Shown: positions 57,047 through 64,000 of the stretch, in pieces
Layout of the letters: each line of letters begins with the position of its first letter
Position numbering within the stretch: position 1 is the stretch's first letter
From: Papiliotrema nemorosa
Taxonomy: Eukaryota; Basidiomycota; Tremellomycetes; Tremellales; Rhynchogastremaceae
Length of the DNA: 64,000 bases
Assembly (NCBI GenBank): GCA_032158125.1
Contig: JASKOT010000028.1
Span: forward strand, 1 to 64,000
Reading direction: 5' to 3'
Notes under the pieces: generated by a model
Seen by the model: the letters and a program-made list of their open reading frames with translations, nothing else
Databases searched by the model: none
What the model was told of the DNA's origin: nothing
Position numbers and translations under genes: made by a program

Positions 57047-58077
57047 TGCATTTATATTGCTTGGTTGTTGGCTGTGCATGCATGGTGGCTGTATCTTATC
57101 GTGCATGTGCACGACATTGGAGCAAGATGTATGGCTTGACGCAGCGGTCGAAAGGTGAAAGGGAAGGAGGACAACGCTGAGCATGTCTCTGTGAGGCTTT
57201 GAGTGGCAAGATTTTGCCACTAATGGTACTATCTAAGCACACGAAAGACCAAACTCGAACGGCTTCGTTCTATGGTAATTGCGCAATCGTGTGAAGATAC
57301 TTGGATTCTCGATGGTGGAGCAGTAGAAGGGTCATGGTCGGCGATTGTGTAGAAGGCGACCGCAGTGTATCGTTCTTGCAGTTTCAACGCGCTTTGGGAA
57401 CTGAAGTCTATAGTCTACCATGTCGCCACTGCGCATGGATGCGATCATCGAGTCGTATACACTCCTTGCTCTCGTACAGGATCATCTCGTGAGGAAGAGA
57501 CTCAAGATCGGTATGACGGGCATGTATGCCACAGCCGACGCATGACATCGAGGCTGAGCTCTCGGGCGTGGCATTGATGACAACCACGAGACGCGCTGCA
57601 AAGATTATTGCGAAATTCAGTTCACCCGCCTGGGGGTGGTTGATGTGACGCATCCGTTCAGCATGAAACTGTGCGGTCTGCAGAATACACGTATTCGCTG
57701 TGGACTGTGTCAGCTGTACATACACGAGAAGACCTGAAAGAATCGTTGCCCACACGGGCGGTATCTTGCGCTTGCCACCTTCTAGACGTCGAGAGGGCGC
57801 CGAGATTGGCCGGTACATCGGATCGTGTATGATAAATATTGATAGACAGTTGTGGCCATCCCGTCTGGGCATCCATCTTATCCAACGCTAGTCGCATCCC
57901 GGTGTCGAGTGCTACCGGAGGGCCTCTCAGCAGTCAGCAGAGCTTGCCAGGTGAGATAAAGTCAACTTTTGACGGTCTGAGGATCTCCTTCGGCAGCGGG
58001 GTTTCCCATACAGGTAGCACGATAAGCAACATCGCATCCCCCAACAACATCATACAGTAGCTCATACATGCAAGATC
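57047..58077. other. 1-kb spacer between SET2 and BUB1 3' ends
   Basis: Convergent spacer, long for this window. A minus frame of 154 codons (57408-57872) has mixed composition and no family resemblance. At 57202-57221 lies a perfect 8-bp inverted repeat with a 4-nt loop. Nothing else recognised. Confidence 0.45.
57202..57221. terminator. Small perfect hairpin downstream of SET2
   Basis: AGTGGCAA, four loop bases, TTGCCACT. It lies 155 bp after the SET2 stop and could be an mRNA 3'-UTR structure or a palindromic protein site; its half-site resembles the GGTGGCAA promoter element. Typing it as a terminator is tentative. Confidence 0.25.
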
Positions 58078-61000
58078 TAAACCCTTCGAGCGGTAATGGC
58101 AGCCAGCTCAATCTTCTTCAACATTGACCGCAGGTTCTTCCCTCCCTTCTGACAATTTTCCTCTAGCCACCCTTCAAACTTCCCCTGGATCTCCGCTATC
58201 TCATCTGTGATCGGCAACTTCCCTTCAGATACCAATGTCGGGTTGAGCAGTGTATCGAACAGAGGGTTCCATAGATCAGCTTGCCAATACTGCCAATCAG
58301 CTCTACTGTATAGTATTCAGTTACATGACATACCCTTTTGAGCGGCTGATCGATCTTGTATCGAACAGGATCTGTCCCCGGCACTGGTTCCGTAGCGATG
58401 TACTTGCCAAACAACATGCAATAGCAGATGCTTGCCAGACCCGAGTAATCGGTTTGGTAAGACCATGGTCGACCTTCTCTCATCTCCACACAATCCCTCT
58501 CGTCGACTTTCCAATCCGCCACGAACATCTGTCCGCCGCCATTATTGGGGAAGAGCGACAGGTCGATCCCACGCCCAAAGTCGATCAACGTGACACCTTT
58601 CGAAGACCATCCATTCTCCCCGGTCCGAGTGTATTGCGGTGACCAAGCAGAGTTGGGCAGATCTTCCAGCCGTACCATGCAATTGTCGATCTTGAGATCG
58701 CCATGGATAAAGTTTGCCCTGTGAAGTCCCTCAACAATGCGAAGAAGCTCTATGGTGAAGAACACTGCGACAAGCTCTTCCACAGAGGATAAAGCGCCCG
58801 CAACGGCCGGCGCGATTCCCATAGACGTGGCTTTGTTGACCACATCGAGTAGAGTTCCCTGGTTCGAGTAGTCGAGCAAAAGATAAGACTCATCTTGAAA
58901 GGCGTACATCTCTCTCGAACGCACGATAGAGGAGACGAGGCGAGCGTCGAGTCGTTGGTGGATCCTGTCCAGGACTACAGCTTCCCAGATACTCGCCGGT
59001 TTCTCAACCTTGATAGCGACCATGCATTTGTCCTGAGCATCCTCATCCTCTTCATCATCGCTATCGGCGTCGTCCAAAACTTGACGAGCAGCGACATCGA
59101 CACCCAGGAACACTGCACCGTATCCGCCTTCTCCAATCTTTTCCCTCACTTCAAATTCCTTGCCAGCCAAATCAAGCGAGAATCCCGGCTCGGGTGCGAT
59201 TGACATTCTTGTTGCTGCACTGCTTCTCCTCGGCTTGCTCGCAGTGTGTTTATGCAGGGCGGCCAGTCGGTCCATTGCACGATGTCGACAATCGATGAAT
59301 CCAGGAAGAGCCGACAGGGGTGGCTCGATGGTCGATAAGAGTTCTGACACAATCTCATCGTCAAGTGGATTGCACGGGTTGGGAAGACCTCCTAGACCAT
59401 GTAATGCGGTCACAAAAGCCGCAGTATTAGTCTCACCTGCATCAGATGCCTCGTTTTGAGCAGAGTGTCTAGTGTCGTTGTCGTCAGGCATCGATATCGA
59501 GCCTCCAGCCAGGGCGGACGTGGAGTGAATGGTGAACCCCTTGGTCAATTCAAACTCCGAACCGACGAAGCCTGAGCGCTGCGCCGGACTATCGAAAGCT
59601 GACGAATCCAGACTCGGACGCGTGGATCGCATAGATGGAGAAGGTTGGGACCTCTCGTCCTCCTCCACGACGGCACTGAGGACATTGGCGGTGCTGATGG
59701 GTTGAGAAGTGACAAAGGCAGCGTCGGCCTCTTCAGCAGTGTCGGCAACGGTACTAGCGGTACTAATACGTCTGGAAGAACCTATTTGTGACGACCGTAG
59801 AGCTGACATCATGTGCGTGTATTCGCATGTCCGCTCGGCGATCGGAGTCATGATGTGGACGTTTGCTCGCGCATGGAAGGGTTGTTCGAGCGCTTCTTCG
59901 TCGTCCGGCTCGAAATTCGGCATGTCAGGCTCTGCAAACGAGGTTCCGTGGACTTGCTCCACAGCTTCGTCACCTTCCTCCTCTTCCTCTGCAAAGCTAC
60001 CCATCAGACGACGAGGCGGGATGCGATTCTTGACAGCAGGCGTTGCAAAGATGTTGGGTCGACCGAGAGGTTGTCGACTCGCAGACGCCGTCTGCTGGTC
60101 CTCTGGGTCTCGTGCGATGCTCTCACTCTCCTCCTCCACAAAGTTCGGTCTTGATTGGGCGTCAGTTGCCATTTCCGAAGGTGAGCTATTCTCGGCAAAG
60201 ATGTTGAATGCTGCCGTCGATCGGACCGGAATAGCATCCTCCTCCTCAAGCTTACCGGGACTTTGCTCATCTTCTGGCTCCTCTGGTATCGCATCCTGGA
60301 AGATGGGTCTTTCGGGCACTTTCTCCGCGAGGACTGGCGTGGCGAAGATATTTGACCTCGGCTTGATGGAAGGTGTCGACTCCACCCCACCGTGATCTTC
60401 CGTAAAGATCTCGAAAGCTCGAGGTTTCGACGAGCTGGCTAAGGGGGTTCGAAGAGCCAGTGGAGTCTTGGCTGGAGTCTCGCTGAAAACGTTGAACTTC
60501 TTCGAGGCAGATGGTGGGACGTTGGCATTCTCATCCGCGAATATTGCCGGAACTCCTGGTCTAACGAAACCTTGAGCAGGACTAGGTGTTGGCGGGACCA
60601 TCCCTGCTACAGGACGCATCATGCCAGATTGCGGTGCTAGCGGGGTTGGTTCAGCGACAGCGACCGGTCCTTCGTCTCCGGAAGAGCCCGAATCCTCGTC
60701 ACTATCACTGTCCGAGTCGGGAATCTTGCTTCCGTGAATGGTTTGATCAAACATCATGGCAACTTCCTCGTTGGCTAGCTTCGTGTTGACAGTAGGCGAT
60801 GGCAGCTTCTTCACCTTGACCTCTTTCTTTGGCGTCGACGCTGAATATCAAACAAGGTCTCGGGTCGAGCAGTAGAGACGACTCACATCCTGGTGCATGC
60901 CATGATCGCTCCCAGTCTTTGACCTCGCCTTTCCATTCACGGCCTAAAAGTCCACGCTCCCGAGCTCGAACCTCCTCAAAGCTCCATTCCTCTCCATTCT

Positions 61001-62424
61001 TGAACACCTTGTCCCACACAAACATCCTCTTTTGGGTTTTGCCCTTCTCGTTCAAAACTTCTGGGCCGTCACTCGGGCACACCCACGGCTCGAACGCGCT
61101 CTTGTGTGATGATTTCGGTCGTGGAGCTCTGCGTGACACTGGAGCTACTGGCAAAGAGGGTACCGAGGAGGAAACTTGCGACGTGTCAAAGTTTCGAAGG
61201 GGGTCATATTTCAGCATTTCTGCTTCGGACATGGGGATGGTGCGTATGCGGGAGAAGACTTCTTCAGATGCTGGCCGAACAGCGTCATTCTCGACCTGCC
61301 ATGTCAGCGTTGGTACCTCGGTGTATAAAGCACTCACAGCATCTTTGAATATCTCCATCTTTGGTGTTCGAGGGGCGATACGTTTCTGAGGAAGCGTCTC
61401 GCCCTTCCAGGGGGTTGCTTCGACGACATTCTCTTTTCTCCTCCCTTCCCTCGTTCCGAAATCTGCCCACTCTGCAGCAGCGACATCCTCTGTTTTCCCA
61501 TCCGCATCGGAAAAGATCTCCATCTTTGCAGCATTTGGTGCTCTCGACGAGGATGCTGCGGCGGACGGTGCCGCCGTCGCACCTGAAATGGAAGAAGGTC
61601 CGCCCACTTGACCGAGGACCGAGCGACCCGCTGGTCGAGGCGGCGCCACGACAGGCTCGTCGTCGGGAACAACACCAGATGGGGGCGCCATGATCCTAGC
61701 GAGGAACGCTTGATGTCGGGATTTCAGACGTTCTAAAGGTGCAGCCTTCCGAGCGATACCTAATCGGTAAATGTCATCCGCCTTTTTCTTCCTACGAGTT
61801 TAGCTAAAATCGGTTCCTTCGCCATATGATACTCACCTTTTGATAGCCTCGGCCGAAGCTGCCCACTCTTCGTAGAATTCAGCATGATTGGTACCGACAT
61901 CTTTGGACTCCAGCATTGCCCAAATCTCCTCTTTTCGCTCGACGTGACGAGAGTACATGGTCCATAGTTTCAAGTGCCGGATGTCTTGCTTATACCTGGC
62001 GTCGTTGGAGAATCGACGGACTGTACTCTCCAGTAAGGGTAGGATGTGCGAAGCGGAAGATGGATGGTGCTGAACTGTGAATGTGATATATCTAGCATGA
62101 TCAGTCATCTCAACGAATAGCTTAGGAGGAGCTGTACCTGTGATAGACGTCCAGTATATCCGTATACCCCTCCAGCATGTCCTCACCAGCACTATCTCTC
62201 CTCTCTGATTCTTCGATATCCCGGCGATGTTGATCATGGCCATCCTGTAGCACTTTCTCCGCTTCAGACTTGTCGAACAGACTGGACAAGGTCGCCGCGG
62301 AGCGACCTCCCGCCAATGGTCGTATGTTCTCCTTATGCGACTCGATCAGAGTAAAGTCTGTAGTAGGTGTTGGGGCTTCCATCGCTGCTCTGTGTCGCCC
62401 AGCAGGCGTCGCGAAGCCCTCCAT
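58078..62424 (-). CDS. BUB1: Spindle-checkpoint kinase Bub1 with Mad3 features (MadBub)
   Basis: Mitotic checkpoint kinase of kinetochores. It starts MEGFATPAGRHRAAMEAPTP (an in-frame upstream Met exists). N-terminal KEN box in SHKENIRPL, then a Mad3/Bub1-type TPR domain (HPSSASHILPLLESTVRRFS, YKQDIRHLKLWTMYSRHVER). A second KEN box lies in GRRKENVVEATP, then NEEVAMMFDQTIHG (Bub1/Mad3 CD1-type motif). The middle carries repeated MEIF/FNVF/FEIF/FNIF plus acidic-residue motifs (ABBA-like). The C-terminal kinase has KIGEGGYGAVFLG, MVAIKVEKP, HRANFIHGDLKIDNCMV and VTLIDFGRGIDLS (Bub1-type DFG-R). It ends AELAAIT-like helix ...LAAITARRV after an intron following QPLKR. About 1,300 residues. Two KEN boxes with an intact kinase indicate the undivided ancestral form, as known for Cryptococcus. 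Confidence 0.94.
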
Positions 62425-62735
62425 GACGCTGATACTCTTGATGTTTTGAAAGAAATCAGTCACCAGTCGATTGTTTGTGTTTGGCTCGACGCGCTCGAGG
62501 CATGACGTGGCGGACAAGGGTGTTGCCACCCATGTGGCTTATCAATCCCATTTGAGATTTCAGGCTGAATTGGGTGATTTTGCCACTCGACCCAATTCTT
62601 CCTTGGGCGTGTGATCAACCCCCATCCATCCTCCCAAGCCAGACTCGACACCTTGCTTCAACACACCTCGTCGACGACCACAGTCACACTTCAACCAGCC
62701 TGGCAGCACATAAACCAGCAGGATTTGAGCCCATT
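62425..62735. promoter_or_regulatory. Divergent promoter BUB1/antizyme
   Basis: 311 bp between two outward-facing starts. It carries GTTGCCACCC (62522-62531) and ATTTTGCCACT (62577-62587), both close to the TTTGCCACC element found in other promoters here. No TATA box seen. Confidence 0.5.
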
Positions 62736-63938
62736 ATGAACTCTAGCTCGAGACAGATGACCAAGTCCAACAGGAATCTACGCCCCGCGTGAGTCATACC
62801 CGGGCTCCATCTCATGTCCGGGCATGTCGGCTGATGGTCTAGCGGTGCCCTGGGAAGCATCGGTACAGGGGCAGACTCACTCCCTCTCTTATTCAACCCG
62901 AACTACAACCACGACGAGCAGAGCTCGAATCCACCTCTGGCTATCGCTCGAGTCGGAGGTCAAGGTGGCTCAGTCTTCGTTTACGCGGATGGACCTCTCG
63001 TGGTGGGCTCCCAAGGAGGTTGCACTTCCTTTGCTGGCGGTGGCAGGCAGTGGTTTTGACGAAGGCAGGAGGAGAACGCCCGTCGTAAGTTGCCGTCGGA
63101 GCAGGCTAGTTGAGGACAAGCGCTGATGAATCTGTAGGACATTGTCGGCGGGTCGCCAAGGAGAGTGAGAGAGTCCTTGACGTCCTACCTGTTCCCCACC
63201 TCTCAAACAACCGCACATCAGAACAGTGGGACGATGTCGGGGTATATATCAAATACCACAAACCTTTTGACCCCTCCATCCTCCTTCACCCACAACTCCC
63301 ACGCGCAGCCCATCCCATCAGTCTCTCAAGAGCTGGATCTATCGCATTCTCTCCCTTTATCACCCGCCGCATCTGACGATTCACTTGAGAATCGTCTACC
63401 TTCAGCTGCAAGGGATTCGACGACTCTAGAGGAAGCAATACCTCTCATCGCTGCGCTTTTCCCTTATTATTCGTCTCATCTGGCTAGATCATCGACAGTT
63501 CTGGAGATCGTCACACCCCCTGATCACGTTTTAACGGGCTTCATATGCGATTTGCCGACCGGAAGGACTGTTTATGTGCACCTGCCTCCCCCGCACATCT
63601 CGTCGCATCGGCCGGAAGCTTTAGGCGGCAACTTCTCAGAGGTCCTGCGACCACATGATCCATCGAAGAGCCCTTCACGTCAGGCAAATTCGCCTTTGGA
63701 CGGCATGGACATACGAGAATCTTTGACAGCCCTGCTTGATCTGGCGTCGGAGTCATTGAATGCGAAAGCGCTGGTGCTGGCTTTGGATAAGAATGATAGG
63801 GAAAGGGAAGGATTGGACGAGTTGCTGCATTCGCTCATGTATGCTGGAGGTCAGGTTTTGCCGCCTGGCCAGGGCGCACTGGACGGTGGGTGGGAGTGGG
63901 ATCCCACAAAGTGGGTGTTGGTAGGTTTGGAGTTGTAA
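62736..63938 (+). CDS. OAZ1: Ornithine decarboxylase antizyme, expressed by +1 frameshift
   Basis: Antizyme binds ornithine decarboxylase, sends it to the proteasome and limits polyamine uptake. ORF1: exon 62736-62788 (MNSSSRQMTKSNRNLRPA) and 62843 onward (ALGSIGTGADSLPLLFNPNY ... PLVVGSQGGCTSFAGGGRQW) ends at TTT-TGA (63054-63059). Skipping the T of TGA continues with GAC in the +1 frame (DEGRRRTPV). An intron at 63085-63137 joins that to DIVGGSPRRVRESLTSYLFP and 257 further open codons. The C-terminal half has antizyme signatures: VLTGFICDLPTGRTVYVHLP, RESLTALLDLASESLNAKAL, VLALDKNDREREGLDELLHS, LMYAGGQVLPPGQG and WVLVGLEL. The full product is about 364 residues, longer than animal antizymes because of a Ser/Pro-rich insert. 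Without the shift ORF1 is an 89-residue dead end. Confidence 0.92.
63051..63060 (+). promoter_or_regulatory. +1 programmed frameshift site (UGG UUU UGA C)
   Basis: Zero-frame codons TGG TTT TGA meet the +1 frame GAC. This has the layout of known antizyme recoding sites, where a slow UGA stop lets the ribosome slip forward one base; high polyamines raise the efficiency. The zero frame upstream and +1 frame downstream each make antizyme-like protein, and no intron that would restore the frame is visible here. Confidence 0.85.
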
Positions 63939-64000
63939 TATTTGTTACCAGCATTCTCAGTTGTAAGATATGATAACGACGCTTAATGTACCTTAGACAC

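Follow-up and report, generated by a model that had tools for sequence, protein, structure and literature searches.

The 64,000-nucleotide stretch of Papiliotrema nemorosa DNA analysed here (contig JASKOT010000028.1, positions 1 to 64,000 of the forward strand, assembly GCA_032158125.1; the window) carries near its end, on the plus strand, a three-exon gene that we read from the sequence as a Tremellomycete ornithine decarboxylase (ODC) antizyme gene, very probably (about 0.94) decoded by +1 ribosomal frameshifting after two introns have been spliced out. A previous sequence-only reading of the window had proposed that the upstream open reading frame (ORF1), followed from its ATG through one intron, ends at TTT TGA, and this was confirmed directly in the sequence, with TTT at 63054-63056 and TGA at 63057-63059. 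ORF1 (62736-62788 joined to 62843-63059) comprises 89 codons, and its last residues are SFAGGGRQWF. In the +1 frame at UUU_U, GAC at 63058 opens nine codons (DEGRRRTPV) that run to 63084. There the downstream frame (ORF2) meets a second intron, whose donor lies 25 nt past the stop and whose removal is required to reach the antizyme domain. The sequence-only reading thus had the first intron and the TTT-TGA overlap right but overlooked the intron at 63085-63137. The fused ORF1-ORF2 product has 364 amino acids. The features are as follows.

62736..62788, plus strand: exon 1, start of ORF1 at ATG 62736, with another in-frame ATG at 62757
62789..62842, plus strand: intron 1, GTGAGT...TAG, 54 nt, predicted from splice signals and protein continuity
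62843..63084, plus strand: exon 2, with the remaining ORF1, the shift site and the first nine ORF2 codons
63030..63056, plus strand: last nine ORF1 codons, FAGGGRQWF, conserved in Tremellomycetes, with GGG at codons -7 to -5 and UGG at codon -2
63054..63059, plus strand: TTT-TGA, followed by C, predicted +1 shift site
63078..63084, plus strand: GCCCGUC, first part of the 5' arm of a predicted hairpin that forms only after splicing
63085..63137, plus strand: intron 2, GTAAGT...CTGTAG, 53 nt, predicted from splice signals and protein continuity
63138..63153, plus strand: remainder of the predicted hairpin, GAC, loop AUU and 3' arm GUCGGCGGG(U)
63138..63938, plus strand: exon 3, ORF2 with the antizyme domain, TAA at 63936-63938

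Identity of the product and its relatives

The ODC antizyme domain PF02100 was found on the fused product at residues 229-364 (E = 2.3e-13, 50.5 bits against a cut-off of 24.2), which bears out the earlier assignment of the downstream +1 frame to an antizyme. It is the single PF02100 match found in the 19.19 Mb genome. The predicted fold of the product matches vertebrate OAZ1 in complex with ODC (4zgy, 5bwa), that is, the antizyme fold. The sole hit in a sequence search of solved structures was 1zo0, with E = 0.7. The same genome also contains an ODC gene (PF00278 at C20:116930-117328; a 540-aa ORF with PF02784, E = 6.7e-73). An Rfam scan of 58000-64000 at gathering thresholds gave no match.

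A protein search with the product, in which scoring covered the 7994 candidates with the most words in common, listed 61 proteins, and the best 56 of these had E < 1e-20. The named proteins among these 56 come from Naematelia encephala (53% identity over 97%) and from Kockovaella, Cryptococcus, Kwoniella, Cryptotrichosporon and Cutaneotrichosporon. Every one of these is a Tremellomycete, the class having been checked for five species; the Cryptococcus relatives we take to belong to it as well. The closest among the matches listed is P0001 (64% over 78%). An ORF1 profile built from seven sequences retrieved 20 short proteins consisting of ORF1 only. C. neoformans is named as a Tremellomycete by Yordanova et al. 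(2015; PMC4505036).

The relatives also agree with the predicted introns. The N-terminal NRNLRPAG encoded by exon 1 is common to them, and the protein is continuous with them across the intron 1 junction, RPA|GA. P0001 and P0016 run ..RR[RS]TPVDIVGG unbroken across the position of intron 2, and P0181 reads as if intron 1 had been spliced, yet stops at WF, as spliced RNA would look. P0182 and P0189 apparently read through an unspliced intron at the position of intron 1.

Conservation of the overlap

Among the 20 ORF1-only relatives, 19 end exactly with W-F at the stop. Ten Tremellomycete-like proteins from the search with the product (P0034, P0036, P0042, P0049, P0055, P0001, P0016, P0020, P0037 and P0054) cross the site in the +1 frame reading G-F-[D/E]; they were selected by that very pattern, so that their number is not a proportion. 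Given a stop in frame 0, this reading implies NTT (Phe, Val, Ile or Leu) before TGA. We therefore rejected the +1 peptide as proof of GGTTTTGA, as it fixes only NTT-TGA; this limit leaves the odds of the frameshift unchanged, since NTT-TGA implies the overlap too. The +1 peptide and the W-F ends taken together indicate that TTT is the common form of the codon before TGA. Gene anatomy, the domain with its predicted fold, and conservation of the overlap are observed, and on this comparative evidence the frameshift is strongly supported. Counting GGNNGGTTTTGA across the genome gave 56 matches, with 50 in the reversed control, a result that is void because the pattern misses the site in the window itself.

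The sequence-only reading had also foreseen that automated annotation would mishandle such genes, and none of the 26 named Tremellomycete proteins from the product search indeed shows the shifted junction W-F-[D/E]. In the gene models P0007, P0005, P0019 and P0008 the junction of ORF1 with ORF2 lies at several differing positions, which points to introns made up by prediction programs to dodge the stop.

Alternatives to frameshifting

The frameshift reading rests on sequence, and an in-frame intron that removes the stop, from GTGGGC at 63003 to the acceptor at 63137, is possible on paper. Such an intron would join ORF1 to ORF2 without any frameshift; the window offers 62 suitable GT..AG combinations of 35-400 nt, six of them with a GTRNGY donor, in every case GTGGGC at 63003. 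The annotation of the named relatives, 0 of 26 with the shifted junction, also speaks for this explanation. However, the joins in the relatives vary, lying after RRW, after GGGR or earlier, whereas the position of the ORF1 stop is identical in 19 of the 20 ORF1-only relatives. Any stop-bypassing intron would delete all or part of the conserved SFAGGGRxWF, and the acceptor at 63137 is already served by the more canonical donor of intron 2, GTAAGT. We consider a stop-removing intron very improbable. An error in sequencing or assembly that left one surplus base in the TTTT run is less probable again, to the point of being negligible: the site is indeed a run of four T, but many separate sequences imply this overlap too. 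These two cases had been put forward as what would refute the frameshift, and the conservation of W-F ends and of G-F-[D/E] makes both unlikely.

Internal initiation would produce ORF2 without frameshifting. Contrary to the earlier statement that ORF2 has no ATG nearby, there are +1-frame ATGs at 62989, 65 nt upstream of TTT, and at 63234; both lie in the frame of ORF2, and the former would give a 298-aa protein. P0037, P0042 and P0049 do carry Met within the 25 +1 residues before the site, but the C. gattii models P0034 and P0036 have none there, and the spliced mRNA has two ORF1 ATGs upstream of 62989. Antizymes are, moreover, generally decoded by frameshifting (PMC4505036, PMC5009743). Internal initiation at 62989 or 63234 thus seems highly improbable, ranking between the stop-removing intron and the surplus base.

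Possible variation of the shift codon

The sole exception among the 20 ORF1-only relatives, P0180, ends with RRWV instead of RRWF and counts against a uniform UUU site. It was found on 16 contigs and is identical to C. neoformans ORF1 at 82 of 85 positions. Its W-V end fits GTT-TGA and suggests that the C. neoformans group shifts at GUU, the alternative being a splice variant. UUU may therefore not be invariant, and the proposal that UUU-UGA is the shift site of the whole lineage may fail within the Tremellomycetes. In the C. gattii model P0007, DDDIVG follows W immediately, as would be expected from a GT donor directly after TGG if the acceptor phase is that of intron 2. We found no paper in the open-licence literature that pairs antizyme with 'GUU UGA'.

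Outside the Tremellomycetes, UUU-UGA has already been stated as the site of all 34 Agaricomycete sequences and of one Dacrymycete (PMC4505036), contrary to the proposal that it is special to this lineage. A 2025 review assigns 'UUU UGA C' to yeast and fungi (PMC11818727), and the site further appears as 'TTTGA' for Ganoderma (PMC9604110) and in a list of +1 sites (PMC3500957). Frameshifting at UUU-UGA is thus known in fungi; its novelty had been overstated, and the present gene adds a further case to an established mechanism. For antizyme together with Cryptococcus or Tremellomycetes, the open-licence literature yielded PMC4505036 and otherwise only seemingly unrelated papers.

The conserved ORF1 tail

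In 20 tails (the window and 19 relatives, the count being restricted to tails ending WF), G at codons -7, -6 and -5 and W at -2 are present in all 20, A at -8 in 18 and F at -9 in 13. In Agaricomycetes, a nascent-peptide stimulator, YYYSTTFSGGP, occupies codons -15 to -5 (PMC4505036). The same paper, comparing four Tremellomycete sequences, describes Tremellomycete antizymes as lacking amino-acid similarity near the shift site and the 3' structure. With more sequences, F-[A/S]-G-G stands at codons -9 to -6 in Tremellomycete and Agaricomycete tails alike. YYYSTTFSGGP was not found in its own register in the present gene, where only F-A-G-G matches, at -9 to -6.

We compared ORF1 profiles of 19 Tremellomycete and 90 Agaricomycete rows, the latter being those of 120 entries listed (of 521) that keep F-[SAT]-G-G-P and GDGA. 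With all columns, E was 0.00084 and the alignment reached the tail; after columns below 50% occupancy had been dropped, E was 0.0015, none of 300 column shuffles reached the score (best 18.4 versus 20.95), and the local alignment stopped at VYS, so that the tail was not included. The points in common are L-[RC]-P, G-x-G-A, L-A-[IV] and [VY]-Y-S. From these comparisons, ORF1 as a whole is judged homologous to the Agaricomycete ORF1. We rejected the similarity of the tail to the Agaricomycete peptide, taken alone, as strong evidence, as 9 of 300 shuffles reach its score. The anchored similarity to the tail of P0133 has p = 0.024, and offsets 0 and +1 tie (9.65 and 9.85).

The present gene and those of Agaricomycetes (Coprinopsis cinerea, and Ganoderma lucidum GlAZ; PMC4505036, PMC9604110) are alike in UUU-UGA, the +1 direction, a short ORF1 and the ODC_AZ domain in ORF2. 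They differ at codon -2, which is UGG here and CGU in C. cinerea, and in the intron predicted here inside the 3' hairpin. UGG at codon -2 occurs outside Agaricomycetes, and frameshifting of a C. cinerea construct was unchanged by it (PMC4505036).

A candidate splice-made hairpin

In the spliced mRNA, GCCCGUC|GAC-AUU-GUCGGCGGGU is predicted to pair as a 9-bp stem with a terminal G-U, beginning 20 (G-U) or 21 nt after UUU_U. This approximates the published Basidiomycota spacing, in which the stem begins 19 nt after the shift site (PMC4505036). Among 1069 windows of 27 nt in the spliced coding sequence, this is the most stable fold (-17.2 versus -13.7 for the next separate one). The 90-nt fold has z = -2.26 when spliced, with 4 of 200 shuffles as stable, and z = +1.33 when unspliced (189 of 200). 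The published structure also has a stem 2 continuous with stem 1 and a conserved seven-base loop 2; the other helices predicted here vary with the length folded.

Several observations weigh against the hairpin as a stimulator. The AAAU that abuts stem 1 in the known basidiomycete structure is absent, AAC or AACG preceding the stem here, and we rejected identity with that structure for this reason. The PVDIVGG peptide largely dictates the pairing: 8-9 pairs arose in 5894 of 20000 codon draws and all nine in 604. PVD.V.G occurs in 4 of the 29 relatives counted as covering the place. No Cryptococcus or Kwoniella entry has it, although many of those are gene models in which an intron could have taken it out. 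The PVDIVGG-coding stretch was also not seen in four models that cross in +1 (P0034, P0036, P0042 and P0049). A viral_contigs scan for the relatives' DNA confirmed none.

A model in which splicing builds the stimulator is tentative and, to our mind, rather doubtful. Intron 2 would split the 5' arm of a 9-10 bp hairpin near the known spacing, so that only spliced mRNA would shift efficiently; taken together with the homologous ORF1, some Tremellomycetes would then keep altered basidiomycete signals, the Cryptococcus-Kwoniella group would have lost the hairpin, and relatives of C. neoformans would have changed UUU to GUU. If true, the retained, altered signals would contradict the 2015 statement that Tremellomycetes lack them.

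Neighbouring gene

On the minus strand, a divergent neighbour carries a Mad3/BUB1 homology region at 61833-62345 (PF08311, E = 1.3e-23), and the frame preceding this region holds a KEN motif (SHKENIRP). It is probably a spindle checkpoint gene arranged head to head with the antizyme gene, with a likely ATG at 62424, about 310 bp away.

Proposed decoding and comparison with known antizymes

After removal of both introns, ribosomes would translate the 89-codon ORF1 as far as UUU, UGA then standing in the A site. There most would terminate, and a polyamine-dependent fraction would slip +1: tRNA-Phe would leave UUU and pair again with the overlapping UUU of UUU_U, and reading would go on from GAC. 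The resulting 364-aa antizyme, a brake on polyamine synthesis, would bind ODC and send it to the proteasome, closing the polyamine loop. The GGG-R-[QR]-W tail, conserved and with UGG at codon -2, is a candidate stimulator, as perhaps is the splice-made hairpin. Slippage, polyamine dependence, tRNA re-pairing and ODC degradation are proposed by analogy with established antizyme biology. For the GCG site of S. cerevisiae, a 2025 study argues against re-pairing (PMC12661321); unlike that site, the UUU site permits it. Vertebrate OAZ1 likewise shifts +1 at the UGA that ends ORF1, but uses UCC-UGA and a 3' pseudoknot (PMC11818727).

The Cryptococcus and Kwoniella antizymes share the ORF1 pattern NRNLRPAG...LAIARAGG.GG..VYS...SFAGGGR[RQ]W and the antizyme domain with the present gene, and their named entries are 41-49% identical to its product, except for P0049 (55% over 46%). 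They differ in that the hairpin-making PVDIVGG stretch was not seen, and the shift codon of the C. neoformans group may be GUU. The splice-made hairpin and this possible GUU codon are modest leads. The gene reopens the matter of what stimulates frameshifting in Tremellomycetes, with the conserved tail, the splice-made hairpin and a possible change of the shift codon as points of interest, and it supplies a clean antizyme gene model from this class for a family in which the public models, where inspected, miss the frameshift.
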